Shown here: piece after piece, positions 3,342 through 19,897 of the stretch
Numbering within the stretch: the stretch's first letter is position 1
How the letters are laid out: every line of letters begins with the position of its first letter
The notes under the pieces: model-generated
The model's input: the letters and a program-made list of their open reading frames with translations, nothing else
What the model was told of the DNA's origin: nothing
Database searches by the model: none
Program-made: the position numbers and the translations under genes
IMG/VR virus record: IMGVR_UViG_3300003892_000005
Coordinates: 1-38,394 of that record
DNA: 38,394 bases
Strand: one strand, 5' to 3'
Source of the DNA: a virus

Positions 3342-4046
3342 ATGGCCGCCAATGAAAGCTCTGTCGAGATCATGCGAAAGCAACTCTCGCCAGTGCTCCA
3401 GCGGGCGAAATCGCTCGTGATCAGGACCGCAACGGATCGAGGAGACGCCAAAGTCTTTCTGGTCAACGTGAAGAAAGCCCAGGAGCAGGTCCACATGCGC
3501 TTTGATCCGACCGTGGACAAAGCGCACAAGGCGTGGAAGGAGGCCGTGGCGCTGCGAGCGTCGTTTCTGAAACCGCTCGAGGAGGCAGAAACCCACGTGA
3601 AGCGCCTCATTGCCTCTTGGGATCAGGAACAGGAGCGCCTTCGCCTCGAGGAGGAGCGCCGCCTTCAAGCGCTCGCCGATGAGGCGGCACGGAAAGAACG
3701 AGAGCGGCTTGAGCGAGAAGCTGCCAGGATCAAAACACCGGAGCGCCGCGAGGCGAAGCTGGAGCAAGCCGCCAGCATCGTCGCGCCCGTGATCACGATC
3801 TCGGCGCCAGAGAAACCCAAAGGCGAAGCGACGCGGAAACTGTGGCGAGCACGGCTCACCGACAAGGCGGTGCTGATTGCAGCAGCGGCCCAGGGCAACG
3901 AGCTTGCGGCCACCTGTCTCAGCTTTGACCAAACGGCCGCGAACAAAATGGCGTCTGCGACCAAGGGCTCCGTGCCGATCCCAGGAGTGGAATTCTATTG
4001 CGAGACCGTGCTGGCGGTCTCGCGGTATGAGAATGGAGGGGAATAA
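3342..4046 (+). CDS. Coiled-coil protein of the RecT operon
   Basis: A 234-residue protein. Residues about 75-145 form a long charged coiled coil rich in E, R and L (EQERLRLEEERRL, ARKERERLEREAARI). The C-terminal domain (RKLWRARLTD, then a helix and GSVPIPGVEFYCETVLAVS) is a pattern I know from uncharacterised phage proteins beside recombination and replication genes. GGAGG lies seven bases before the ATG. Location between nuclease and annealase suggests a structural or loading role in recombination. The stop overlaps the recT start (TAATG). Confidence 0.75.
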   Translation: MAANESSVEIMRKQLSPVLQRAKSLVIRTATDRGDAKVFLVNVKKAQEQVHMRFDPTVDKAHKAWKEAVALRASFLKPLEEAETHVKRLIASWDQEQERLRLEEERRLQALADEAARKERERLEREAARIKTPERREAKLEQAASIVAPVITISAPEKPKGEATRKLWRARLTDKAVLIAAAAQGNELAATCLSFDQTAANKMASATKGSVPIPGVEFYCETVLAVSRYENGGE

Positions 4047-5542: not shown

Positions 5543-5785
5543 GTGGAGCACGAGCGGCGTGGGCCGCTTAGTCGGGGAACCTACCGAGAAAGACGCCAGC
5601 GGAAATTCGGCTGGTGGAGCGACGCGAAATCCTCGGCCCGTACCCGCCTCCCGGCCAGCTATGTCAAAACACAGAGGATCGGTTTGAAAGGCGAAAGCTC
5701 CCGAGCGGACCACGTTGGGCGACACCGGCCTCAGACGGTTAAAAGTGGAACGCCAGGGTCCCGCCGCTGCACGGATGGTGTCTAG
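5543..5785 (+). CDS. Doubtful reading frame, GTG start
   Basis: The frame starts with GTG right after the previous stop and has GGGAGGT upstream, giving 80 residues that are strongly basic and look poor. Within it, a different frame (GTG 5614 to TAA 5742, 42 residues) gives a more protein-like sequence (ERREILGPYPPPGQL, then RFERRKLPSGPRW) that is also open upstream to a stop near 5575. Either a short gene uses that frame, or a frameshift is present. I keep one low-confidence entry for the stretch. Confidence 0.25.
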   Translation: MEHERRGPLSRGTYRERRQRKFGWWSDAKSSARTRLPASYVKTQRIGLKGESSRADHVGRHRPQTVKSGTPGSRRCTDGV

Positions 5786-6313: not shown

Positions 6314-6847
6314 ATGCTGACGCGCTCCGCAAAGGCCAAGGGGAGGAGGCTCCAGAACCAGGTTGCCCGCGATCTGGCCCGCGTGACGGGGCTGCGCTAC
6401 GGGCGCCCAGACGACGATTCGGCAGATCTCCGAGGCCGGCCGATGGGCATGTCCGGGCCCGACATCGTCCGGTCAGAACGGGCGCTGGAGCGCGTCCCGT
6501 TCTATATCGAATGCCGGGCTCGGGAGTCTTGGGGCTTCGGCCCTCGCACACTCGATAGCGGGACGTCGCCGCTGGTGACGTGGTTCGTCGAGACGGCCAA
6601 TGCGGCGTTCTGGTGGAACGAGGCGCGGCCCGACCTCAACGTGCCGCTGTTGATCGTGACGAGGAACCACTATCCTGTGGTTGCCGTCACTGGTTCCTCA
6701 CACATCGACCGTGAGTGCGTCCGTCTCGTCCTGCCCCTTCCCGAATCCGACCGCGCCTTCTGTGGGGAGCAGGCGGTGTGTGTTGTGCTGTGGACTCGCT
6801 TGCTCCAGATGTGGTACGACAACGCTCTGTGGGAAGCAGGCTCATAG
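6314..6847 (+). CDS. PD-(D/E)XK-like endonuclease, resolvase candidate
   Basis: A 177-residue protein with GAGGAGAG before the ATG. The pattern KAKGRRLQNQVARDL, RPMGMSGPDI, VPFYIECRARESW follows a phage family of putative Holliday-junction resolvases or RusA substitutes: a basic N-terminal helix, an acidic residue in GPDI, and an I-E-x-K motif. Here the last motif reads IECR, with arginine where lysine normally activates the water, so activity may be altered. The conserved tail (LLIVTRNHYPVVAV) matches the family. It is coupled to the helicase-methylase gene, whose GTG overlaps the stop. Confidence 0.65.
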   Translation: MLTRSAKAKGRRLQNQVARDLARVTGLRYGRPDDDSADLRGRPMGMSGPDIVRSERALERVPFYIECRARESWGFGPRTLDSGTSPLVTWFVETANAAFWWNEARPDLNVPLLIVTRNHYPVVAVTGSSHIDRECVRLVLPLPESDRAFCGEQAVCVVLWTRLLQMWYDNALWEAGS

Positions 6848-9135
6848 TGGAAGGCCAACACTCAACACTCCACGCGTATCGACAGTTTCTTGTACAGAAG
6901 CAGTCTCGTGTGATCCCAGTGTCAGGAAAGGAGATTCATCCATCGCACATCCATCCAATGCTCTTTCCGTTTCAGCGAGATGTGTGCGCGTGGGCAATCC
7001 GAAAGGGTCGAGCGGCATGCTTTCTAGATACAGGCTTAGGGAAAACGTTGATCTCGCTAGAATGGGCGAGGCTCATCGGGGAAAATACGCTGATCGTGGC
7101 CCCGCTCTCCGTCGCCAGACAGACGGTACGAGAGGCCCAAAAACTTGGTTGTACCGTGCGCTATGTCAGATCGCAGCATGAACTTGATTCGGGACATACG
7201 CTCTGGATAACCAATTACGACATGATTGATGCGTTCGACTTTTCAGCGTTTGGAGCGATTGTCCTTGATGAATCCTCAATCTTGAAAGCGCTTGATGGAA
7301 AGACCCGAGGAAAGCTGATCGCCGCCTGTCAACGCATTCCTTACCGTCTCGCCTGTACAGCCACACCAGCGCCCAACGACCAGACGGAGATCGGGAATCA
7401 TGCAGAGTTTCTCGGTATTTGCACGATGTCCGAGATGCTGTCTGAATTTTTCGTCCATGCCAACATTCAACACGACAGAGTCCTAGAGACGGGTCACATC
7501 GTGCGGACAAAACTGAGCAACACACGCGGACAAGAGTGGAGACTCAAGCACCATGCCCGCAACGCCTTCTACCGCTGGATGGCCTCGTGGGCCATGAGTC
7601 TTCGAAAGCCTAGCGATCTTGGCTACATCGACGACGGCTTCATTTTGCCTCCGCTAATGATCAATCCTGTTTGGGTCTATGTTCCTGTCAAACGGGATGG
7701 CGAACTCTTCTTTTCCGGTCTTCGTGGCATTGCTGATCGTCATGCGGTACGTCGCGTGACATTGGCTGAACGGATTCGCGCACTCTCAGAGCTTGTGAAG
7801 GGGACCAATGAGCAGTGGATCATTTGGACCGGACTGCAAGTCGAGGCGGATGCCGCCACGTCAGCTCTCACGGACGCTGTCCAAGTCAGGGGATCAGAAA
7901 GCCCTGACGAGAAGACCAAAAAGTTCGAAGCATTTCAAGATGGCCATTTTCAGGTCCTCGTCACGAAGCCACGAATCGCTGGATACGGCATGAACTTTCA
8001 AAACGCGCACTATGCAGCCTTTCTCGGTCTGAGCGATTCCTGGGAGTCCTACTATCAGTGTATCAGACGGCAGTGGAGATTTGGGCAAACCCATCCCGTC
8101 ACGTGTTACATTATCTTGTCAACTGCGGAACAGGAAATCTATGAGAACGTCATGCGCAAGGAGCAGACAGCAAGACAGATGACAGACGAACTGATTCGGT
8201 CCATCAAGACCTATGAGGAACAAGAACTCGTCGGAAAACACCTGGCAACAATCACACAACCAGTCAACGAAACGGTCAATGGGAACGGATGGACCGCCAT
8301 GCTCGGCGATGCCTGTGAACGCCTCACGGAATTGGCTGATAATTCTGTAGACCTGTCAATCTATTCGCCGCCTTTCGCCGATCTCTATACCTATTCACCG
8401 AGCGAGCGCGATCTTGGCAATAGTCACGGATGGGATGAATTTTTTGCGCACTATGCCTTCATCATCCGAGAAGTCTTGAGAGTCACAAAACCTGGACGGC
8501 TTTCGTGCGTGCATACCTCGGATGTGCCGGCAATGAAACTCAAGGACGGGTATATCGGCATGCGAGATTTCCCTGGCGACGTGATCCGTGCCCATGAACG
8601 CGAAGGCTGGATTTTTGTTGGACGGGCATTCGTACAAAAAAATCCCCAAGCCCAAGCCATTCGAACAAAAAGTAAAGGCCTGCTTTTTGCCCAGCTTCGT
8701 AAAGACAGCACGCACAGCCGCCCAGCGCTCGTTGACCAGGTGCTCTTGTTCAAAAAACCCGGAGAGACCGCCAGTCCCGTCAAACCGGTCGAGAACGGTG
8801 AACTGGACAACGAAACATGGATAAAATGGGCACACGGATTATGGGTTGATATCCAAGAATCTGATGTACTCAAATTCACACACGCTAGAGAAGAGGATGA
8901 TGAGAAGCATATTTGCCCCTTGCAGCTTGGAACAATCGAGCGATGCCTGAAGCTGTACAGTAATCCTGGAGAGGTGGTGCTCACGCCTTTTATGGGCATC
9001 GGAAGTGAGGCCTATCAGGCAATACGTTTTGGTCGAAAGGTGATCGGCATCGAACTCAAAGCATCCTATTTCCGAAGTGCTGTTGAGGCGATTCGAGAAG
9101 CAGAGCGTGCGTCGTCCTCTGCCCTGCTGCTCTGA
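6847..9135 (+). CDS. SNF2-type helicase fused to DNA methyltransferase
   Basis: A 762-residue protein starting at GTG 6847, which overlaps the previous stop. Residues about 40-480 form a superfamily 2 translocase: Walker A DTGLGKT (61-67), motif II DESS (141-144), motif III TATPAPND (171-178), and a C-terminal lobe ending in QCIRRQWRFGQ. Residues about 485-762 form a beta-class amino methyltransferase: motif IV SPPF (507-510) precedes the SAM-binding TPFMGIGSEA (from 713) and VIGIELK. The order IV then I is that of N6-adenine or N4-cytosine enzymes. It has no nuclease domain. I infer protective DNA modification against host restriction, with DNA remodelling by the motor. Confidence 0.85.
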   Translation: MEGQHSTLHAYRQFLVQKQSRVIPVSGKEIHPSHIHPMLFPFQRDVCAWAIRKGRAACFLDTGLGKTLISLEWARLIGENTLIVAPLSVARQTVREAQKLGCTVRYVRSQHELDSGHTLWITNYDMIDAFDFSAFGAIVLDESSILKALDGKTRGKLIAACQRIPYRLACTATPAPNDQTEIGNHAEFLGICTMSEMLSEFFVHANIQHDRVLETGHIVRTKLSNTRGQEWRLKHHARNAFYRWMASWAMSLRKPSDLGYIDDGFILPPLMINPVWVYVPVKRDGELFFSGLRGIADRHAVRRVTLAERIRALSELVKGTNEQWIIWTGLQVEADAATSALTDAVQVRGSESPDEKTKKFEAFQDGHFQVLVTKPRIAGYGMNFQNAHYAAFLGLSDSWESYYQCIRRQWRFGQTHPVTCYIILSTAEQEIYENVMRKEQTARQMTDELIRSIKTYEEQELVGKHLATITQPVNETVNGNGWTAMLGDACERLTELADNSVDLSIYSPPFADLYTYSPSERDLGNSHGWDEFFAHYAFIIREVLRVTKPGRLSCVHTSDVPAMKLKDGYIGMRDFPGDVIRAHEREGWIFVGRAFVQKNPQAQAIRTKSKGLLFAQLRKDSTHSRPALVDQVLLFKKPGETASPVKPVENGELDNETWIKWAHGLWVDIQESDVLKFTHAREEDDEKHICPLQLGTIERCLKLYSNPGEVVLTPFMGIGSEAYQAIRFGRKVIGIELKASYFRSAVEAIREAERASSSALLL

Positions 9136-9140
9136 TACGG

Positions 9141-9169
9141 TTGACAGCGGCGTTTAATTCTCGTATGGT
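9141..9169 (+). promoter_or_regulatory. Sigma-70-like promoter before the replication gene
   Basis: TTGACA (9141-9146), a 17-base spacer and TATGGT (9164-9169) form a good sigma-70-type promoter directly after the helicase-methylase stop, predicted to start near 9176. The -35 is perfect and the -10 matches four of six bases. It gives the replication protein an expression separate from the long early operon and feeds the structured leader that follows. Confidence 0.65.
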
Positions 9170-9190
9170 GATCGTGCATTAACCCTCGCA

Positions 9191-9315
9191 CCAGCGCCCG
9201 CTGGGCTGAGCGCGGGTCGCGCCCGCCTCAGTAGGCCACTAGGCCGAGCGGCTGTTTGGGACTGTTCACGGCTCCTGGAGACCGTGTCAGTCCCAAGCAG
9301 TTTTCTCCAGGAGCC
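9191..9315 (+). ncRNA. Structured 5' leader with terminator/alternative hairpin
   Basis: Four inverted repeats lie between promoter and gene. A: CCAGCG/CGCTGG around 9191-9204. B: CTGAG and GCGGG against CCCGC and CTCAG (9206-9231), one bulge. C: a 13-bp outer stem (9252-9264 with 9288-9300, one G-U pair), inner CACGG/CCGTG, then TTTT at 9301, the form of an intrinsic terminator. D: an 11-bp perfect pairing of 9270-9280 with 9305-9315, which uses the loop and inner arm of C. C and D cannot form together in full. This looks like an attenuator, or a terminator for the upstream operon. No known riboswitch class is recognised. Confidence 0.55.
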
Positions 9316-9319
9316 TCAT

Positions 9320-9355
9320 ATGTTCGAAGGCCATTCGGAGGTGTTCCCCCAATGA
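9320..9355 (+). CDS. Leader peptide frame (11 residues)
   Basis: ATG 9320 follows AGGAG (9309-9313) and encodes MFEGHSEVFPQ. Its TGA overlaps the ATG of the replication gene (ATGA). The ribosome binding site for this peptide lies inside the 3' arm of hairpin D, so folding would hide it. Translation of the peptide could open or couple the downstream start. There is no run of a single amino acid as in classical attenuators. Confidence 0.4.
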   Translation: MFEGHSEVFPQ

Positions 9356-10218
9356 GCAGATACCGAAATGTCTTGAGTCGAATCTGGGAAGATGACAAGT
9401 TTCCATTCCTTTCCCTTGAATCTCGACTGCTCTTTCTCTACCATCTAACCTCTCCTCGAGCGACGCCATTCCTCCTCTATGTTGAAGGGCCTGGAGCCAT
9501 GGCCGATGCCTTGCGCTTGCCTTCGGCTAGGCTTAGGTCATGCCTTAGCGAAGTCTCACACCAAGGCATGGTTTGGTATGCGGATGATGGCTCGAATTTG
9601 CTCTTCCTTCCGAAGGCTTTGACCATCAAAGAAAATGCTCCACAAAGTCCAAATGCTGTCAAAACCTGGCTTGCCCTTCTGAACGATTTGCCAAAAACTC
9701 CTTTCTTTTTCAAGTGTTTACATCATTGGTCATGCCTAGCCGAAGCCATACCGCATTCCTTAACCGTTGCCTTCGTCAAGGCATGCACTAAGGCATACCC
9801 TATGCCTCCCATACAGGAACAGGAACAGGAACAGGAACAGGAACAGATTAGGACTCCTCCCCCTACCCCCCCCTCTCGGGAGGGGGCCGTCGAGGAGGCC
9901 ATGCCCTCAAATGGCTGGGGGACCCCTGAAGCCCTCGTCGCGCTCTACAACGCCGAAACGCCCGATGAGCTACCCGCCGTGGTCAAGCTCACCGAGGCAC
10001 GTCGAAAAAAAGCCAGGCTCTACCTCAGACAGTTCCCCGACCGAGACTTCTGGCTTGCGGTATTCTCGCAAATCTCAGCGTCGCCATTTCTGCGTGGGCT
10101 AAGGAATTCCCCAGGCCATCAGAGTTTCAAGGCGACCTTCGACTGGCTACTCACCAAAGGCAAGGACGGAACGGAAAACGTGATCAAGGTGTACGAGGGG
10201 AGGTACAGCGATGGCTAG
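9352..10218 (+). CDS. Replication initiator-like protein
   Basis: A 288-residue protein started at ATG 9352 (GGAGG ten bases upstream); an upstream TTG at 9256 would place the start inside the hairpin and is rejected. Residues 1-95 (SRYRNVLSRIWEDDKF, then LESRLLFLYHLTSP) resemble the winged-helix N-terminus of phage replication organisers. A linker holds five glutamate-glutamine pairs, encoded by a GAACAG hexamer repeat near 9815-9845, then a proline-rich part. The C-terminal domain (KLTEARRKKARLYL, DRDFWLAVFSQISASPFL, TFDWLL, VYEGRY) is typical of phage replication proteins. It probably binds the origin and recruits host helicase. Confidence 0.75.
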   Translation: MSRYRNVLSRIWEDDKFPFLSLESRLLFLYHLTSPRATPFLLYVEGPGAMADALRLPSARLRSCLSEVSHQGMVWYADDGSNLLFLPKALTIKENAPQSPNAVKTWLALLNDLPKTPFFFKCLHHWSCLAEAIPHSLTVAFVKACTKAYPMPPIQEQEQEQEQEQIRTPPPTPPSREGAVEEAMPSNGWGTPEALVALYNAETPDELPAVVKLTEARRKKARLYLRQFPDRDFWLAVFSQISASPFLRGLRNSPGHQSFKATFDWLLTKGKDGTENVIKVYEGRYSDG

Positions 10219-10648
10219 GGCGAAGACGAGAGCCGGCACCACGCATGAGCACGACAGGCAATCACTGTGTCCACACGATGGGTCAACGCTCGATGCCCAC
10301 GGATTTTGCTGGAGGGCAGGGGGCTACCCGTCACTTCGATGGTATTGGGAGCCAACCGGGAATCGAGGACGAGGAGGCTGGGAGACGGCGGCTACGCGGT
10401 GCCCATTTGCCTGCCCAGCCTGCGGAGGGAGGCTGGACTGGGATGGCGGTTGTACGTCGTGCGTCGGGACGGGTCGCACGCCGCCCCGCGACGAGGATCG
10501 GGATGCATGGCGGTACCCTGGGGAGTATTATGCGCTCCGAGGCGGCCACTGGAAGGCCCTCACGGGCCCAGAACCGGCACTCACCCATGAGCGCGTCTGC
10601 CGGATGATGGAGGAACTGCGCACCGGAGGTATTGGTGAGTCACCCTAG
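10211..10648 (+). CDS. Cysteine-rich putative zinc-binding protein
   Basis: A 145-residue protein overlapping the replication gene by 8 bases and ending the rightward unit. Cysteine pairs CPH...CW (residues 20-33) and CPFACPAC with CTSC (about 64-85) suggest one or two zinc ribbons; much of the rest is tryptophan, arginine and glycine. As the partner of the replication protein, it may be a primase-like or helicase-loading accessory, but no catalytic motif is seen. Confidence 0.65.
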   Translation: MARAKTRAGTTHEHDRQSLCPHDGSTLDAHGFCWRAGGYPSLRWYWEPTGNRGRGGWETAATRCPFACPACGGRLDWDGGCTSCVGTGRTPPRDEDRDAWRYPGEYYALRGGHWKALTGPEPALTHERVCRMMEELRTGGIGESP

Positions 10649-10662
10649 CCATTCCCCAAATA

Positions 10663-10783
10663 GACCCCAGACCGCACGTAAATGGCCCAAATTTGAATGA
10701 TCTCATGCAACCCTAGCCCCATTCTACCTGTTCAGGAGAACTGCCCCTAGAACGCGCGTAAACGGCCGAATTTTGAACGACCC
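10663..10783. repeat. Imperfect direct repeats between converging operons
   Basis: Two copies about 36 bases long (10667-10702 and 10747-10782), exactly 80 bases apart, match at about 28 of 36 positions; the best cores are CGTAAATGGCC against CGTAAACGGCC and TTTGAATGA against TTTGAACGA. A third, degraded copy may start near 10788 (AGACGCGTTAAATTGG). They lie in the only convergent gap. No stem-loop with a T-run is clear, so termination is unproven. Origin iterons, a terminator-protein site or remnant of a mobile repeat are possible. Confidence 0.5.
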
Positions 10784-10858
10784 CCATAAGACGCGTTAAA
10801 TTGGGCGTTTTTGGGGCCAGACCTTTTTGTTCCTTGTGTCCCGTATCCAGCGCCGCAC

Positions 10859-11356
10859 TCAGGACAGCAGATACATGCCGGCGTCGGCGAGCCAATCCAC
10901 GTCCACGATGATCTGCACGTCGCCAGCATAGTCCCTCGCCCGTCCCTGCTCGGTGAGGCGATCCGACAGGAAGCCTATGATCGCCGCCCGATTTCCAGAC
11001 CTGACCAGCGCAGCCCACTCTCGCCGCAGCTTCTCGGTCCCCCGTCCGAGTCCCAGCCACGCCAGCATGCCTCCTGCGGGCCTTGCGCCCATCACGAGGA
11101 GGTCAACCAGATCACAGAGCAGGTCTCGCGGGACAGCGACACCCTGCTCGTAGCTATAAAATGGCGTGAACCCGCGGTCCTGGGTCCGGTCCTGCAGGAA
11201 CTGCCTGATGCGATGCGCCCGATCCTCAGTGTCAGGCTCACGCATCATGGTCGCCCACTCGGCGAGGCGTTTCGAGGCCTCCCCCGCACGTATCGACTCG
11301 ACAACCTGGCCCACGGCCTTGATCAGCGCGGCAAGGTCGCCAGGGCCGATCATCAT
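10859..11356 (-). CDS. Hypothetical protein, last gene of late operon
   Basis: A 165-residue, mostly helical protein that overlaps the lipoprotein gene by 4 bases. It has no signal peptide and no motif I recognise; hydrophobic stretches (LLCDLVDLLVMGA, GGMLAWLGLG) are too short or weak for sure membrane helices. Position after holin and lipoprotein suggests a late or lysis accessory role, but this is only context. Confidence 0.65.
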   Translation of the reverse strand: MMIGPGDLAALIKAVGQVVESIRAGEASKRLAEWATMMREPDTEDRAHRIRQFLQDRTQDRGFTPFYSYEQGVAVPRDLLCDLVDLLVMGARPAGGMLAWLGLGRGTEKLRREWAALVRSGNRAAIIGFLSDRLTEQGRARDYAGDVQIIVDVDWLADAGMYLLS

Positions 11357-12927: not shown

Positions 12928-13692
12928 TCAGCGGGCTGCCGTTCGCATTTTCATGGTCGCCGCATTCAGGGCTTCGCGCAGCTCTTCGACGCGGACAGCG
13001 AACGCGTTCAACACGCTGCCGGCGTCGTTGTGGAACACGATCATCCCGACCACGTGGCCTGCCGCATTCAGGACGGGCGCCCCGGAGCAGCCGGCATGAA
13101 TCCCTCCCAGCCACGGATTCACGAACAATGTCGGTCTGGTCGCAGCGCCAGGCACTGACTCCACAGTATCGAGATAGCGCCCGACAGACCATTCGTCAGC
13201 GAGCATACCGCCTCGGCACACCCACCACACCAGATCACCAGGCGACGGTCCTCGCGTCGCCAGGACGAGTGGGCGGAGCGGTCCCCGATCCCGAAAGGCG
13301 GTGTGGCGGTACACCGCCACATCCGCGTCACGGTTCCAGATCAGTTCAGGCAACGGTGGGTATCCCGCTGTCCAGATTTCTCCGGTCAGGCAAGGCTTGA
13401 CCTGGCAATCTGGGTCGTTCGGGGCGTGGTCGCCGACCACGTGCGCCGCCGTGACAATCGCCCCGGCCACCGCAAAGCCCGTGGCCGCTTGTTTCCTCAC
13501 CCGAGACTGACCCTCCGGTGCCGGGCGAGCCGGATCGTGAATGACCACACGCACCGCGACCACGCTCTTGAACGCGGTCTTGACCGCCGCTGGGGGTTCG
13601 ATCCAGGCAGGAATGCGGCCCGGTTGCTCACGCAGGGCGGCGCAACCGACCAGCACGAGCAACGCCATCGCGGTCAGGCACGATTTCCGCAT
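12928..13692 (-). CDS. Trypsin-like serine protease lipoprotein
   Basis: A 254-residue protein from ATG 13692 (GGAGG upstream). A signal peptide ends at the lipobox LVGC (C17), so it should be lipid-anchored outside the inner membrane. A full chymotrypsin-fold triad is visible: H84 in IVTAAHVV, D124 in DADVAVYR, S203 in GCSGAPV, followed by HVVGMIVFHN, the usual strand after the nucleophile. Paired cysteines could form disulfides. There is no PDZ domain, so it is unlike full DegP/HtrA. It lies between two lysis-region genes and follows a secreted zinc protease. A role in envelope or surface-protein cleavage is inferred. Confidence 0.8.
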   Translation of the reverse strand: MRKSCLTAMALLVLVGCAALREQPGRIPAWIEPPAAVKTAFKSVVAVRVVIHDPARPAPEGQSRVRKQAATGFAVAGAIVTAAHVVGDHAPNDPDCQVKPCLTGEIWTAGYPPLPELIWNRDADVAVYRHTAFRDRGPLRPLVLATRGPSPGDLVWWVCRGGMLADEWSVGRYLDTVESVPGAATRPTLFVNPWLGGIHAGCSGAPVLNAAGHVVGMIVFHNDAGSVLNAFAVRVEELREALNAATMKMRTAAR

Positions 13693-13714
13693 GATGCCTC
13701 CTTCCTGTTTCTGG

Positions 13715-14566
13715 TCACATCCCGGCATCGACGACCCGACAGGCGACGTCAGTGCTCACATGCAGCACCACATTTGGCCCGACGACGACCGACGGCCCTC
13801 CACACCGCCAGGGGCCTACCGACCACACCTCGGGCTTCGCCATGGCGCTGTAGGCCGTAATCTGGCCCCAGTCGCCACGTGGCGGGGCGGAGAATAGCAC
13901 GGCCAGGAACACCGCTTGGTTCAGCGGATGCGGAACGCCCTGGCGCCATCGGGCCATCGCGAGGTCCACGACACAGCGCGAGCACAGCATCCACTGGTTG
14001 ACCATTGACGCGACGAACTCCTGGGGGTTGTCGCGGAAGAAGCAACGAGGGAACATGCTGCGGAGGTAGTGCGAGGGGTCACACCCCGCCTCCGCGATCA
14101 GCGCCTCGGCCCACGGCCCATAGCCACGATTGGGGATAGGCACGACCGGATCGTCGGGATGGCGACGCAGAAACCCGTGCGCGAACAGCGCGATCTGGTG
14201 CCCCAGTTCGTGCGCGGCGACAATGGCGAATTGCGAGGCGACCGGATGGGGCCCAGGCAGATCATCAGGAAACTCCCCTCGGACCACGAGCCCCTCCCCA
14301 CCAGAGAGGATATTGATGGCGCAGGGAATGACCATCGTGGGCGCCGGGACGCCGGGAGGTCCGTCAAGCGTGATGCGCGGACAGATCGTTTCGGACAGGA
14401 CCGGGAGTGACGCCGGTTGATCGACCGTGATACTCCGCAGATGGGGGTACAGTCCGGGCGGCATACTCGTCAGGAGCGCGGTCAGCTCACTACGATTGGC
14501 GTCCGTCAGCGCAGTGCCGTTGACGAGCGAGAGGGCCAGCGCCAGGAGGAGGGCATCAAGACGCAT
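13715..14566 (-). CDS. Secreted zinc metalloprotease (HELGH)
   Basis: A 283-residue protein from ATG 14566, with a signal peptide (MRLDALLLALALSLVNG). HELGH at 119-123 supplies two zinc histidines and the catalytic glutamate; NPQEFVASM with E183 fits the third ligand of gluzincins such as lethal-factor-like or neutral-zinc peptidases. Eight or more cysteines, several after the signal, fit an exported protein. It starts 11 bases inside the helix-turn-helix gene and is followed 22 bases later by the serine protease, so the two are co-made. The target is unknown: envelope proteins, a receptor or peptidoglycan peptides are options. Confidence 0.75.
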   Translation of the reverse strand: MRLDALLLALALSLVNGTALTDANRSELTALLTSMPPGLYPHLRSITVDQPASLPVLSETICPRITLDGPPGVPAPTMVIPCAINILSGGEGLVVRGEFPDDLPGPHPVASQFAIVAAHELGHQIALFAHGFLRRHPDDPVVPIPNRGYGPWAEALIAEAGCDPSHYLRSMFPRCFFRDNPQEFVASMVNQWMLCSRCVVDLAMARWRQGVPHPLNQAVFLAVLFSAPPRGDWGQITAYSAMAKPEVWSVGPWRCGGPSVVVGPNVVLHVSTDVACRVVDAGM

Positions 14567-15480: not shown

Positions 15481-15683
15481 CCGAACCGTCGCGCCAGCCA
15501 GGACAAGACCAACACCAGGATCGGCACGACCGCGCTGAGCAGCCAGATCGCGCCGCGCATCTGATTGATCGCCGCGTCGTGGTCATTGACGAGGCGATGC
15601 AGGCGCTCGATGGACTCCTGGATCGCTTCGAGACGTGCCAGGATCATCCCGACCTCGCGATTCGTCAGCGGTGCGTCGCTCAT
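15477..15683 (-). CDS. XhlA-like membrane protein
   Basis: A 68-residue protein with an amphipathic coiled coil (ILARLEAIQESIERLHRLV) and a C-terminal membrane helix (IWLLSAVVPILVLVLSWLA). This order, coil then anchor, is that of hemolysin XhlA-like phage proteins that assist holin function. It lies between the huge virion protein and the zinc-ribbon and lysozyme genes, coupled by overlaps to both. It might equally be an anchor for the internal virion protein. Confidence 0.7.
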   Translation of the reverse strand: MSDAPLTNREVGMILARLEAIQESIERLHRLVNDHDAAINQMRGAIWLLSAVVPILVLVLSWLARRFG

Positions 15684-18600
15684 GGCGCAATCCCAAGCCG
15701 CCGGAGGCGTTCCGCTTCAGGACTCTGAAGGAACAGCGGCCGCATCGTCGGCGGCAATGATTTCAAAAACAGCTCGAACTGGGTCCCTGGACTGAGCGTC
15801 GGGAACGCTTCGGTACGCGCTGTCCGTCGCAACCCTTCGAGCGCCGTCGCCATGACAGCGCGTTGTCGCTCCGGCGGCATGGCGACGTAGGACGGTCGCG
15901 CGATCAAGGGAGCTAACGTGCGCTCCACCAGGGGGCCCATCGCCGCGGCGATGGCATTGTCGGCCTCTGGGTTGCCGGTCGTCGGGAGGATGTCGCGGCT
16001 CGCCAGCCCGAGGCGGTCGAGTTCCGCACCAATGGCCGTCTTGGTCTGGATCGGGATGCCCGTGAGTTGCCGAAGGATGCCGAACTCCCGCGTCGGTGGA
16101 GCGGCTTCCGTCGGGACGTGGCGCTCCGGGAGCGTTTGGCGCAGCCCTGGGATCATTTCTTTGATTGGCCCAAGAAATGGCTCATGGCGTCGGCTGCGCT
16201 GCACCGCCTCCTCCGGGACGAAGGAAGACAGCACGTCCGTCAGGGTGCGCAATGGAGTGAGGAAGGAGGCCGCGACCTCGCCCGCAAAGGCCCCGAGCGC
16301 GCGGCGGCCCCCCTTCCCCTCTACACCTTGCGTGATGCCGTTGAGCACATCCAAGACCTGATCGAGCAAGAACATGCCTGCCCCCGCCCGGAGATTGACG
16401 CTGGCGAGACCCTTGGCGACTTCAGACCAGTTCACGGTCTCCAGTTCACCACGCCGCGCCTTGCGGATCAGCCAGCCCACGACGAGATGCGGCGTGAACG
16501 GGTTGAACGGGCGCATGTCGATGCTTTTGTCGCCGACTTTCAATTCATAGGGCTTATCGCCGCCGTATTCCGATTCCTGCACCAACCAGCCAGTGAGGAA
16601 CAGCGTGGTCCCGATGCTCGCCTTTGCAAGGGTCCGCGTGTCCCCTGCGGCGATCTTGGCCCGCTCCTCTGCGGAGAGCAGGCGGGAGAGAACCAGGGGG
16701 CTGTGCTCGAACTGGAATTTCGTCGCCTGCGCGAGGAACCGCGGGAAGGGGATGGCGAGGTCCGCGAACGGGATTTTACGAAAGAAATTCACGAACGCCT
16801 TGCCCGCTTCGCTCACGGGCTCATTCGCAAAGGTGACGTCGAGCGCATGGGTGACGGCCTCGCGGATGTCCGAAATCGGCACGGACCTTGGGTCGATCTG
16901 TTCGAGCGGCGTCGTGATGCCCCTCGCCCGCAGTCGCTCCTCCAGTTTGGCGAGAAATCCAATGTCGCGGAAATACATCTCTTGCAGCCGGTTCGGGGCA
17001 TTCACAATATCGAGCGCACGTTCGATCCCGCCGAGCACCTTGCCCAGGCCACGGACGACGGGCGAGGCCTGATCGGGGATGTCCACGTCGGAAAAATAGG
17101 TACCCTCCAGGCGCCGACGCTGGCTCGGAAGGGCCTCCAAAATTCGCTTCGCCAACTCTCGGTTGGCCCTTGGTGAGGCGACCAGCTCGAAATACTGTGT
17201 CGCGGCCTCGACCGGCCCAAGTTCACCGGGTTTCGCCACGCCGCGGACCCGTCGAATCATCGATTCAAGGCTGGAGACGGCGGACTCAATGACGAGTCGC
17301 CCCGCCTGCGTCTCGAAGTTCCGTACAGCCGTCGCCAATTGGCCGATCATCGCTCGACGCCGGATACTGGCGACGCGCTCGAGTGCTGACAAGACTCGCG
17401 CCGCCGCGGGCGACGTTGACTCGGTTTGCTCCAGCCGCCGAACGATCTGCGACAAGACGTTCAAACCCTTGCCGTATTCCGAGCCAGCCTCGTAGAAACT
17501 ATCAAGGAAGAGTTCCTTGTCGATGTTGGCTTTATCGAGGTAGGAGATGAAACGATCAAGGAGTTGTGGTTGATTGCTGAGGTGGGTTGTGAGCTGTTCG
17601 AGGATGCGGCCTTTCGAGCGGTCGAAGGGCAACTTGTTTTCCATCATGAATTGCGCGGCCGTGTTGGCCGTTTCCGTGAAGACCTGCGCGGACAGGCGCG
17701 GCTCAGTCAGGACCGGCTCTGAACCCTCCGCCTCGGCGATCCGCACGGCGGCACGGATCGGCCCGGATTCGGGCCCGAGGTCGGCCGTTGCGCTTTCCCT
17801 GGGAGGCGGCGAAGGCGGCTCCGCAGGGGGGGTGGCGCTCGCCGTCGGCTCGCCCTGGCCGACGAGGCCTCGGCGCTTGGCCTCCCGGAGTACGGTCTTC
17901 ACGCCTCCTGGGCCACGTCGCCAACCCAAGACGATGGTGGCCGGATCGTCTGCCAGTTCTGGGGCCACGCTCCGAATTGCCTCTTGGATTTCTCGCTTCT
18001 GCGCAAGGAAGGCGACCTGCTCCTGCTTGGGTGTCGGGTTGTCTGGGAGACCGCGCCGCTCCCGCGTCTCCGGCGACCACTGCAGGAGCCCCGCATCTCC
18101 TGCCTTGCCTTCGCCTACGGGACGGCCTTTCACGAATTGACCGGGTTTGGCCCCAGGGTTTTCGACGCTGACGATCAGATTGAACAGCCGTTGATCGGCC
18201 GGATCGGAGAAGGTCAATCGGAATCGCCCGGCGTAGTTGGTCACGCCCTTGGATAGACCTTCGAGCACCTTCGCCGTCCGCTCTCGGTCGGTGCGGTTGC
18301 GGAGCAGTGGCAACCACGCAGGCGCCGTAACCTCCGTCGGCTCGGGCGCAGGTGGTCGCTGCTGGGGCTGGCGCGGTTGACGTCGGGCGGCCTCCGCTGA
18401 CTGAGTGGTCACTGGGCCTGGCGCGACAGGCGCGCCTTCGGCGGGTGGCGACGCCGGAGCCACGGGCGATCCCGACGCGGCTGCCTCGCGAGCGGCGAGT
18501 TCATCGACCGCTGCCGCGAACGCTTCGTAGTCTGCGCTCTTCTCCCGTGCGAGCTGCTCCTCGACGGCCTGCCGGATCGCCAGATACAGCTTGTTGCTGC

Positions 18601-19897
18601 GGTCTTTGTCAATTGCCTCGACGATCTCCTTGGGCCCGACCTTCGGAAGGTCTCGAAGCTCTGGGAACTCCTCGGAGAGTTGTTCTCTGATGCTCTTGGC
18701 CTTCCCGACAACGATGGTCTGGCCTTCTTCGGTCTTCCCGAATTGCTTTCCCGTCGGAAGTGCAGTACGTGCGTCCTCGACCTGGGTTCGGAGGGCGCGC
18801 ATGCGCTCGGCGATTTCGCTTGCTGTCGGCGTCGTGGGTGCCGTGAGCGATGCCGAGGTCTCCGGCGCCTCGGCTGGCAACGACGTCCCCGTGACCCGTG
18901 GCGGAACTGGTGGCTCGGCAGGAGGCGCGGTGACGCGCGGCTGCGCGGCCGCGATGGTCTCTGGCGTGAGGTCCCGAGGGCCTCCCGTGGAAGCCACCGA
19001 TACGTCAGGTGGCGGGGTGGGAACCTGCGTTGGTTCTGGGATTGGGGCCGCGGGCGGCCGCTCTGGGACCGCGAGTTCCGGTGGCGGGGCGCCACGTGGC
19101 CCTCGTGACGCGGCCGCCTCGCGTGCAATCGCAGCGGCCGTCTGCTCGGCCCGGACGATCTCCTCTGGCGTACGTCCGATGCCGATCCGACTGAGGAGAT
19201 CGGCCAGACGGGTTCCTCCCGTCGGGATGAACGGCAAGGCCACGCCAGCCGCGAGTTCGCCGACGCCGGCTGCAAGGCGAGACGCCTCCGGTGTCAGGCC
19301 CACACCTCGGGCTGCCGTCTCGATACCAGCTCCAATGGGTGCAAAGATCGGCTCAAAGGGCGTGGCGGCCGCCCCCAGCACCGAGAGGGCTTTCTCTGCG
19401 ATGCCGCGGCCTGGAATCTCCGTAGGTCTGAGTGTCGCCAGCGCACGCGCCACGTCGAGGAATCGCTGTCCAGACTCCTCGAGGCGTTCGCCGACGCGCT
19501 GGCCGAAGAACTGCAAGGGAGACAGGTCGGGGCGGGGAACCGCCCCACTCAGCGGCCCGATGTCCGCCGGCGTGGGCACATCCTCTGGACCGATGGAGAT
19601 ACCCTCGGCTGTAAAGGGTAGAGGCGGCAAGATGCGAGGCAACGCGCCGATGCCCTCAGCGATGGCCTGCCCTGCACGACTGAGCAATCCGGGAGCTGGC
19701 GGCGGCTGCGGCAACGACCGTTGCGGAAACGTCTGATCGAGAACGTCCGTGATGTCGCGCAGCATCCCCTCGTCTGGTGGAACGGACGGGGCGGCCGCCT
19801 TCGGCTCCGGTGCCGGTGGAGGGGGCGGTGACGGGCGAAACCGCTCCCCGAAGGTCCGCCCGAGCACCTCTCGGATGTCGTCGATGGCGTTCGCCAT
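15680..19897 (-). CDS. Giant internal virion/ejection protein
   Basis: A 1405-residue protein. Residues 1-520 alternate proline-rich stretches with alanine-rich helices. Around 560-680, LIVSVENPGAK, GDAGLLQWSPETRE and later VLGWRRGPGGV follow the lytic transglycosylase pattern (catalytic Glu, then GxxGLxQ), so it may cut peptidoglycan at entry, as T7 gp16 does. Residues about 860-1260 (NAPNRLQEMYFRDIGFLAKL, DVTFANEPVSEAGKAF) resemble the C-terminal helical domain of large polyvalent phage proteins. Hydrophobic segments near 1090 may enter membranes. The end of the upstream gene overlaps the start. I infer ejection with the DNA. Confidence 0.7.
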   Translation of the reverse strand: MANAIDDIREVLGRTFGERFRPSPPPPPAPEPKAAAPSVPPDEGMLRDITDVLDQTFPQRSLPQPPPAPGLLSRAGQAIAEGIGALPRILPPLPFTAEGISIGPEDVPTPADIGPLSGAVPRPDLSPLQFFGQRVGERLEESGQRFLDVARALATLRPTEIPGRGIAEKALSVLGAAATPFEPIFAPIGAGIETAARGVGLTPEASRLAAGVGELAAGVALPFIPTGGTRLADLLSRIGIGRTPEEIVRAEQTAAAIAREAAASRGPRGAPPPELAVPERPPAAPIPEPTQVPTPPPDVSVASTGGPRDLTPETIAAAQPRVTAPPAEPPVPPRVTGTSLPAEAPETSASLTAPTTPTASEIAERMRALRTQVEDARTALPTGKQFGKTEEGQTIVVGKAKSIREQLSEEFPELRDLPKVGPKEIVEAIDKDRSNKLYLAIRQAVEEQLAREKSADYEAFAAAVDELAAREAAASGSPVAPASPPAEGAPVAPGPVTTQSAEAARRQPRQPQQRPPAPEPTEVTAPAWLPLLRNRTDRERTAKVLEGLSKGVTNYAGRFRLTFSDPADQRLFNLIVSVENPGAKPGQFVKGRPVGEGKAGDAGLLQWSPETRERRGLPDNPTPKQEQVAFLAQKREIQEAIRSVAPELADDPATIVLGWRRGPGGVKTVLREAKRRGLVGQGEPTASATPPAEPPSPPPRESATADLGPESGPIRAAVRIAEAEGSEPVLTEPRLSAQVFTETANTAAQFMMENKLPFDRSKGRILEQLTTHLSNQPQLLDRFISYLDKANIDKELFLDSFYEAGSEYGKGLNVLSQIVRRLEQTESTSPAAARVLSALERVASIRRRAMIGQLATAVRNFETQAGRLVIESAVSSLESMIRRVRGVAKPGELGPVEAATQYFELVASPRANRELAKRILEALPSQRRRLEGTYFSDVDIPDQASPVVRGLGKVLGGIERALDIVNAPNRLQEMYFRDIGFLAKLEERLRARGITTPLEQIDPRSVPISDIREAVTHALDVTFANEPVSEAGKAFVNFFRKIPFADLAIPFPRFLAQATKFQFEHSPLVLSRLLSAEERAKIAAGDTRTLAKASIGTTLFLTGWLVQESEYGGDKPYELKVGDKSIDMRPFNPFTPHLVVGWLIRKARRGELETVNWSEVAKGLASVNLRAGAGMFLLDQVLDVLNGITQGVEGKGGRRALGAFAGEVAASFLTPLRTLTDVLSSFVPEEAVQRSRRHEPFLGPIKEMIPGLRQTLPERHVPTEAAPPTREFGILRQLTGIPIQTKTAIGAELDRLGLASRDILPTTGNPEADNAIAAAMGPLVERTLAPLIARPSYVAMPPERQRAVMATALEGLRRTARTEAFPTLSPGTQFELFLKSLPPTMRPLFLQSPEAERLRRLGIAP

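Follow-up and report, generated by a model that had tools for sequence, protein, structure and literature searches.

A predicted leader RNA with an anti-Shine-Dalgarno apex ahead of a divergent phage's replication gene: a candidate translational brake

A folded leader before the replication gene

Which kind of control, if any, is exerted by the promoter and the series of hairpins that stand immediately before the replication gene of this virus? The window, i.e., the whole stretch of DNA analyzed here, is an IMG/VR record consisting of a linear virus contig of 38,394 bp with 62% G+C. Its minus strand carries the portal, terminase, capsid, and tail genes, and its plus strand an early block that comprises, in this order, exonucleases, RecT, a helicase-methyltransferase fusion (6715-9135), the leader, and the replication gene (rep). 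The leader is non-coding and occupies positions 9136-9351, with the helicase-methyltransferase gene upstream and the replication initiator gene downstream. The Rep protein matched the PHROGs family phrog_345 ("replication initiation O-like", E 3e-15) as well as phrog_10469, phrog_1701, and DnaD-like helicase loaders. The parts of this region are the following:

9141-9169, plus strand: sigma-70-type promoter, TTGACA-17-TATGGT, recognized by its match to the consensus
9191-9204, plus strand: hairpin A, 5 bp, CCAGC/GCUGG (-7.3 kcal/mol, z -3.2)
9205-9232, plus strand: hairpin B, 12 bp with one bulge (-19.2 kcal/mol, z -4.0)
9234-9245, plus strand: small hairpin GGCC-ACUA-GGCC (-7.3 kcal/mol, z -2.9)
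9250-9304, plus strand: hairpin C with TTTT, intrinsic-terminator-like by its fold (z -6.2) and its T-tail score
9352-10218, plus strand: rep, phage replication initiator, O-like/DnaD-like helicase loader according to its PHROGs matches

A reading of this region made from the sequence only had described a good sigma-70-like promoter followed by hairpins A and B, and all three were recovered here. The promoter begins 6 bp past the methyltransferase stop, its boxes (TTGACA, 9141-9146, and TATGGT, 9164-9169) are separated by a 17 nt spacer, and it was the sole match of at least 10/12 when both strands of the 38 kb window were scanned. On the basis of the promoter spacing, the RNA is expected to start near 9176-9177. 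The RNA predicted from 9177 to 9304 has a folding energy of -74.7 kcal/mol vs. -49.0 for shuffles (z -6.55); the small hairpin at 9234-9245 was absent from the sequence-only reading. That reading had also recognized no known RNA class, in agreement with the finding that the leader had no Rfam match in the window, at E<=10 in 9000-9500, or at E<=1 in 6700-11000.

Some other traits of the genome may be reported at this point. The fusion gene is a single ORF of 806 aa (6715-9135) in which a helicase (DEAD/Helicase_C) is joined to an N6/N4 DNA methyltransferase. The rep gene embeds repeats at 9517-9846, namely TGCCTT...AAGGCAT units at 9541-9569 and 9768-9796 and ACAGGA units at 9813-9846, which look like origin iterons within a replication gene (compare lambda O). 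On the minus strand, a trypsin-like peptidase domain (PF13365, E 5.6e-10) is encoded at 12928-13728, and a 1405-aa ORF (15680-19897), lying on the same strand as the structural genes, has no Pfam or PHROGs match.

Hairpin C, pairing D, and the leader frame

The 13-bp terminator-like hairpin C with TTTT, already pointed out from the sequence, is present: its outer stem pairs 9252-9264 with 9288-9300, with one internal G-U, and reaches 15 bp (9250-9264/9288-9302) if two extra basal G-U pairs are counted; the inner stem is formed by 9267-9274 and 9278-9286, and the T-run (9301-9304) directly follows the hairpin. Hairpin C alone gave z -6.21 vs. shuffles, and its T-tail score of -4.37 is of a kind reached by 0.08% of the window positions. 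It was not listed by the automatic terminator scan because the rule of that scan requires an uninterrupted stem and a loop of 3-8, which is a limit of the rule. We regard C as terminator-like. Downstream of its outer 5' arm, the features of interest are as follows:

9270-9281, plus strand: 5' arm of pairing D, GGCUCCUGGAGA, the anti-Shine-Dalgarno (anti-SD), in the apex of hairpin C, a perfect 12-nt complement of 9304-9315
9304-9315, plus strand: 3' arm of D, UCUCCAGGAGCC, which contains the Shine-Dalgarno sequence (SD) AGGAG of the leader ORF
9320-9355, plus strand: putative leader ORF of 11 residues, MFEGHSEVFPQ and stop, overlapping rep by ATGA
9330-9357, plus strand: hairpin enclosing the rep SD GGAGG (9337-9341) and AUG (9352-9354) (-7.9 kcal/mol, z -1.7)

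Pairing D joins GGCTCCTGGAGA (9270-9281) with TCTCCAGGAGCC (9304-9315). It had been reported as a perfect alternative of 11 bp; it is perfect, and its length is 12 bp. The AGGAG that it was said to hide (9309-9313) does lie inside the 3' arm and ends 6 nt upstream of the ATG at 9320. The statement that D takes over part of C holds for the apex (inner stem and loop, 9267-9286) and not for the 13-bp outer stem, whose bases D leaves unused; the last T of the T-run (9304) is at the same time the first base of the 3' arm of D. The outer stem of C and D thus cross in a pseudoknot-like manner, and the pairings, previously described as mutually exclusive, are so only under nested folding. In that case the fold with C is the more stable by about 6 kcal/mol (-89.2 vs. 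-83.3 with D); when the elements are evaluated individually, the outer stem (-21.6) and D (-22.4) together outweigh the whole of C (-32.9), the pseudoknot penalty not being counted. The connectors of such a pseudoknot are short (5, 6-7, and 1-4 nt), so that its full form would be strained, and it is likely that D either forms partially in cis or pairs in trans.

These relationships bear directly on the transcriptional attenuator, or switch, suggested by the sequence-only reading, with C as the terminator and D as the antiterminator. The resemblance of C to an intrinsic terminator and the competition between C and D in nested folding speak for it. However, the 3' arm of D lies at or beyond the T-run, so it would be transcribed only past the termination point, and it uses no base of the terminator stem; D cannot therefore be an antiterminator, and we consider this explanation quite improbable. 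Since D is not an antiterminator, its action would be confined to covering the SD in the read-through RNA, either in cis or, via the RNA of about 130 nt ending at C, in trans; what is left is a translational device on the read-through RNA.

The frame of 11 residues said to end in the start of rep was found as described, its stop lying in the ATGA whose ATG starts rep at 9352. The hairpin at 9330-9357 had been missed before; it is weak, with a z of only -1.7, and ribosomes translating the leader ORF would open it.

Two further explanations would make D incidental or would move its role to the DNA level. As far as the first is concerned, in lambdoid phages and HK022 a promoter is followed by adjacent hairpins, a terminator, and then the replication gene, and the order of the parts in the window matches this plan; promoter and terminator might thus operate under antitermination, by a phage protein or by hairpins A and B acting as a put-like RNA; both hairpins fold well (z -3.2 and -4.0). 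We judge this improbable: it leaves unexplained a perfect 12-bp anti-SD match located in a hairpin apex, and no antiterminator gene was recognized among the proteins scanned. According to the second explanation, the palindrome CTCCWGGAG, present twice at a distance of 33 bp, would be an operator bound by a repressor, e.g., Rep itself. Both copies are near-palindromic, and the motif (with one mismatch) occurs 28 times in the window vs. 11.9 in shuffles, although only one further exact copy exists in the window (34051), the promoter is located 100 bp upstream of the two sites, and their match is 12/12 as an inverted repeat, asymmetric flanks included, and about 8/12 as a direct repeat; on these grounds a DNA operator appears very doubtful.

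Relatives of the phage and the same layout in other viral contigs

The search for relatives did not reveal another genome harboring the leader. The DNA of the leader and rep showed no similarity among the named phages and plasmids searched, and the exact pattern of the D arms had no match in IMG/VR. Rep relatives amounted to 80 loci at 24-39% identity plus ten bacterial loci (IMG/VR and bacterial genomes), and the leader is absent from all of them. The closest relative, and the sole close one found (L103, 71% over 132 aa with the Rep N-terminus as the query), has no leader either: a different ORF ends shortly before its rep, and its DNA is faintly similar around the end of the 11-codon ORF. 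It is tempting to imagine, speculatively, that the leader replaced an upstream gene and retained its tail. L103 also retains repeats similar to those at 9517-9846 in the rep gene. Ten relatives of the helicase-methyltransferase were found in IMG/VR (37-59% identity), with variable downstream content and none beside a rep like that of the window; a portal search in their records returned nothing, and a TerL search returned one distant relative. The leader was not found in ten records searched whole, L103 included. In two loci, L084 (about 5670-5780) and L090 (about 6400-6500), a terminator-like hairpin lies after the helicase-methyltransferase gene, just before the next SD, with no evident SD match; the region of the former also contains a promoter-like TTGACA-TACCAT. 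The leader is thus known from one genome, and records near-identical to the window may escape this kind of search. As no leader-bearing relative was found, evidence from covariation on C and D is neither for nor against either pairing, and this is the principal weak point of the interpretation.

A similar layout is nevertheless present in other phages. A scan of IMG/VR with the core of D retrieved 103 stretches, four of which (L150, L164, L168, and L175) form a group, F2. The sites concerned, together with a second case described below, are:

L150, 54-131: F2 site
L164, near 1416-1494: F2 site
L168 and L175, minus strand: F2 sites
L292, about 3610-3700, minus strand, and L304: hairpin displaying GTGCCTCCTTCA before the SD AAGGAGG

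F2 sites comprise a stem of 11-12 bp with the anti-SD TCTCCTGGAGA in its apex and an SD placed 5 nt before the ATG of a gene that, as read from its sequence, probably encodes an HNH-type zinc-ribbon protein. Their stems vary compatibly, apex and SD being unchanged, and compatible variation is also observed in a preceding first hairpin, CCACGG...CCGTGG. These leaders had no Rfam match, and protein searches, in which L211 was checked, added no leader-bearing members. The second case emerged from a scan for CCTCCTT/AAGGAGG with flanking stems of at least 11 bp, which gave a modest excess (at least six among the matches listed vs. 1.3 in shuffles). Among the matches listed is the pair L292/L304, whose stems differ at eight positions making up four pairs, all four of them compensated, whereas the anti-SD loop and the SD are identical. 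This hairpin had no Rfam match, and L292, like L219, had no DNA match in named phages. F2 and L292/L304 show that hairpins of this kind are maintained as such ahead of SDs in other phages, which does not imply homology with the window; a T-run is lacking from both layouts.

How far chance might account for the layout was assessed by a scan that required three features: a start codon with an SD; within the preceding 80 nt, a perfectly complementary stretch of 10 nt or more that covers this SD; and a flanking stem of no fewer than 8 bp. In 3.1 Mb of viral and related sequence (strand-counted), 14 places were found, eight of which are the four F2 sites, each counted in two overlapping loci; the window ranked top at 12+15 = 27. 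Dinucleotide shuffles, used as a control, gave 0.67 matches per set and a best score of 21. The sequence scanned had been partly gathered by the core CTCCTGGAG...CTCCAGGAG, which favors matches there, the score of the window being independent of that. Within the window, the runner-up combinations were 9+9 to 12+9 bp. The arrangement of hairpin, anti-SD, and SD is no chance product.

A possible brake on rep and its counterparts

The reading we prefer, which in our judgement stands evenly balanced between right and wrong, is that the leader is an SD-masking brake on rep with two layers, in which a leader RNA is set against its own read-through mRNA. Most transcripts from the promoter at 9141 would stop at C, leaving a very stable RNA of about 130 nt with the anti-SD in its apex. 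In the read-through RNA, the 12-nt anti-SD has the capacity to pair with the SD of the leader ORF and might do so in cis (through a pseudoknot with C, or with C partly opened) and/or in trans, through the terminated RNA, in a c4-like manner. With the leader ORF untranslated, the SD and AUG of rep would remain inaccessible, given that the start of rep falls within the stop codon of that ORF. Rep would thus be made only once the terminator had been passed and the anti-SD displaced. What we infer from the sequence is that the promoter is used, that termination and pairing occur in the cell, that the leader ORF and rep are coupled, and that the regulation has this direction.

The uniqueness of the promoter in the window, a folding beyond that of shuffles, the T-tail, the 12-bp match, and the ATGA overlap are consistent with such a brake, as are the occurrence of these parts in the same order in two experimentally tested systems, those of Gifsy-1 and P1 described below, and the recurrence of the hairpin layout, with compensatory stem changes, in unrelated viral contigs. 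Against it, the leader comes from a single genome, a good SD also precedes rep itself, and the hairpin that would mask that SD is weak (z -1.7); moreover, C beats D in nested folding and the connectors are short, which may leave D incomplete in cis. Lastly, no lysogeny gene was recognized among the window proteins scanned, and the need for a brake is therefore not evident.

The main rival to the SD-masking brake is a switch that sequesters the SD only in cis, in response to a protein, a ligand, or temperature, and uses no trans RNA, C being a processing or insulation hairpin. The higher local concentration inherent in cis pairing favors this version, as does the fact that F2 and L292/L304, devoid of a T-run, share the layout. 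On the other hand, a discrete RNA is delimited in the window by a promoter on one side and, on the other, by a T-tail that scores in the top 0.08%, and no ligand-binding core was recognized in the leader by Rfam. We consider it a real but minor possibility.

It is useful to compare the proposed brake with systems in which similar parts are known to work. In the isrK-orf45-anrP region of Gifsy-1, a small RNA ends at a Rho-independent terminator, translation of the read-through mRNA is prevented by the pairing of its small-RNA portion with the region of the small ORF, and the stop of orf45 overlaps the start of anrP as AUGA, their coupling having been demonstrated by mutation (PMC4825925). As judged from its sequence, the window has the same order of parts, i.e., promoter, RNA with a terminator-like 3' end, predicted read-through, small ORF, and AUGA overlap. 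Unlike what we propose here, however, IsrK activates in trans; in its pairing, about 30 nt contact the 3' portion of orf45 and not directly the SD, which the window pairing covers, and the target gene is an antirepressor instead of a replication gene. No match to an IsrK-type family was obtained in Rfam, above gathering or at E<=10.

The c4 RNA of P1 and P7 is likewise transcribed from the same strand, upstream of its target, and carries an exact complement of a stretch beside the SD of a small ORF, whose end shares ATGA with the start of the following gene. In the P1 sequence, the a2 and b2 sites (7 and 8 nt) both have exact complements in c4; b2 immediately precedes icd, whose overlap with ant1 is the ATGA in question. 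The pairing region of c4 is displayed by a stem-loop, and its b' loop partly occludes ribosome-binding sites (PMC5320573). The differences are that c4 uses these two short sites and the window one 12-nt site; that c4, which is 77 nt long and folds into three stem-loops, is excised by RNase P, whereas the window has a terminator-like 3' end and a different fold; and that the c4 system targets icd/ant and not a replication gene. The covariance models C4 (RF01695) and c4-a1b1 (RF03163) had no match in the window, at E<=10 in 9000-9500, or at E<=1 in 6700-11000; the same search found both in P1 (68.8 and 51 bits), which served as a positive control. By its anatomy the leader resembles c4 and IsrK, a likeness that does not establish membership in their families.

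In the P4 system of CI RNA with seqA/seqC, as summarized in PMC4825925, the CI RNA, derived from the leader of the replication operon, shuts this operon off by pairing with that same leader. The proposed brake would likewise set a leader RNA against phage replication; the P4 RNA is processed and causes termination of transcription, whereas the pairing in the window covers an SD.

In plasmids R1 (tap-repA) and ColIb-P9 (repY-repZ), a short leader ORF is translationally coupled to the replication initiator, and RNA structure sets the access of ribosomes. The junction of a leader peptide ORF with rep is shared by the window and would be in agreement with control by an RNA transcribed from the opposite strand, such as CopA in R1 and Inc RNA in ColIb-P9. 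Nevertheless, no such promoter is seen over the leader: the best minus-strand promoter of the sigma-70 type near the leader scores 8/12 and lies inside C, and no T-run follows the hairpin on that strand. We regard antisense control as the least probable of the alternatives.

Coming back to the SD-masking brake, the leader offers a signature that can be searched for, consisting of a stem, an anti-SD apex, an SD within about 25 nt, and a short ORF with an ATGA overlap, which is not in Rfam. We tentatively advance, as a minor possibility, the idea that an anti-SD-apex hairpin directly upstream of the matching SD might be a recurrent, unnamed control element of phage genes, with F2 and L292/L304 as its unrelated carriers, and of which the window would represent the most elaborate form, with a promoter-to-terminator RNA braking a replication gene via a coupled leader peptide. 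The phage carrying it is very divergent, and its DNA resembled none of the named phage records searched. If the brake is real, this phage's replication gene would be throttled by its own leader RNA, and the logic of c4, IsrK, and P4 CI would extend from enterobacterial immunity and antirepressor genes to a replication initiator.
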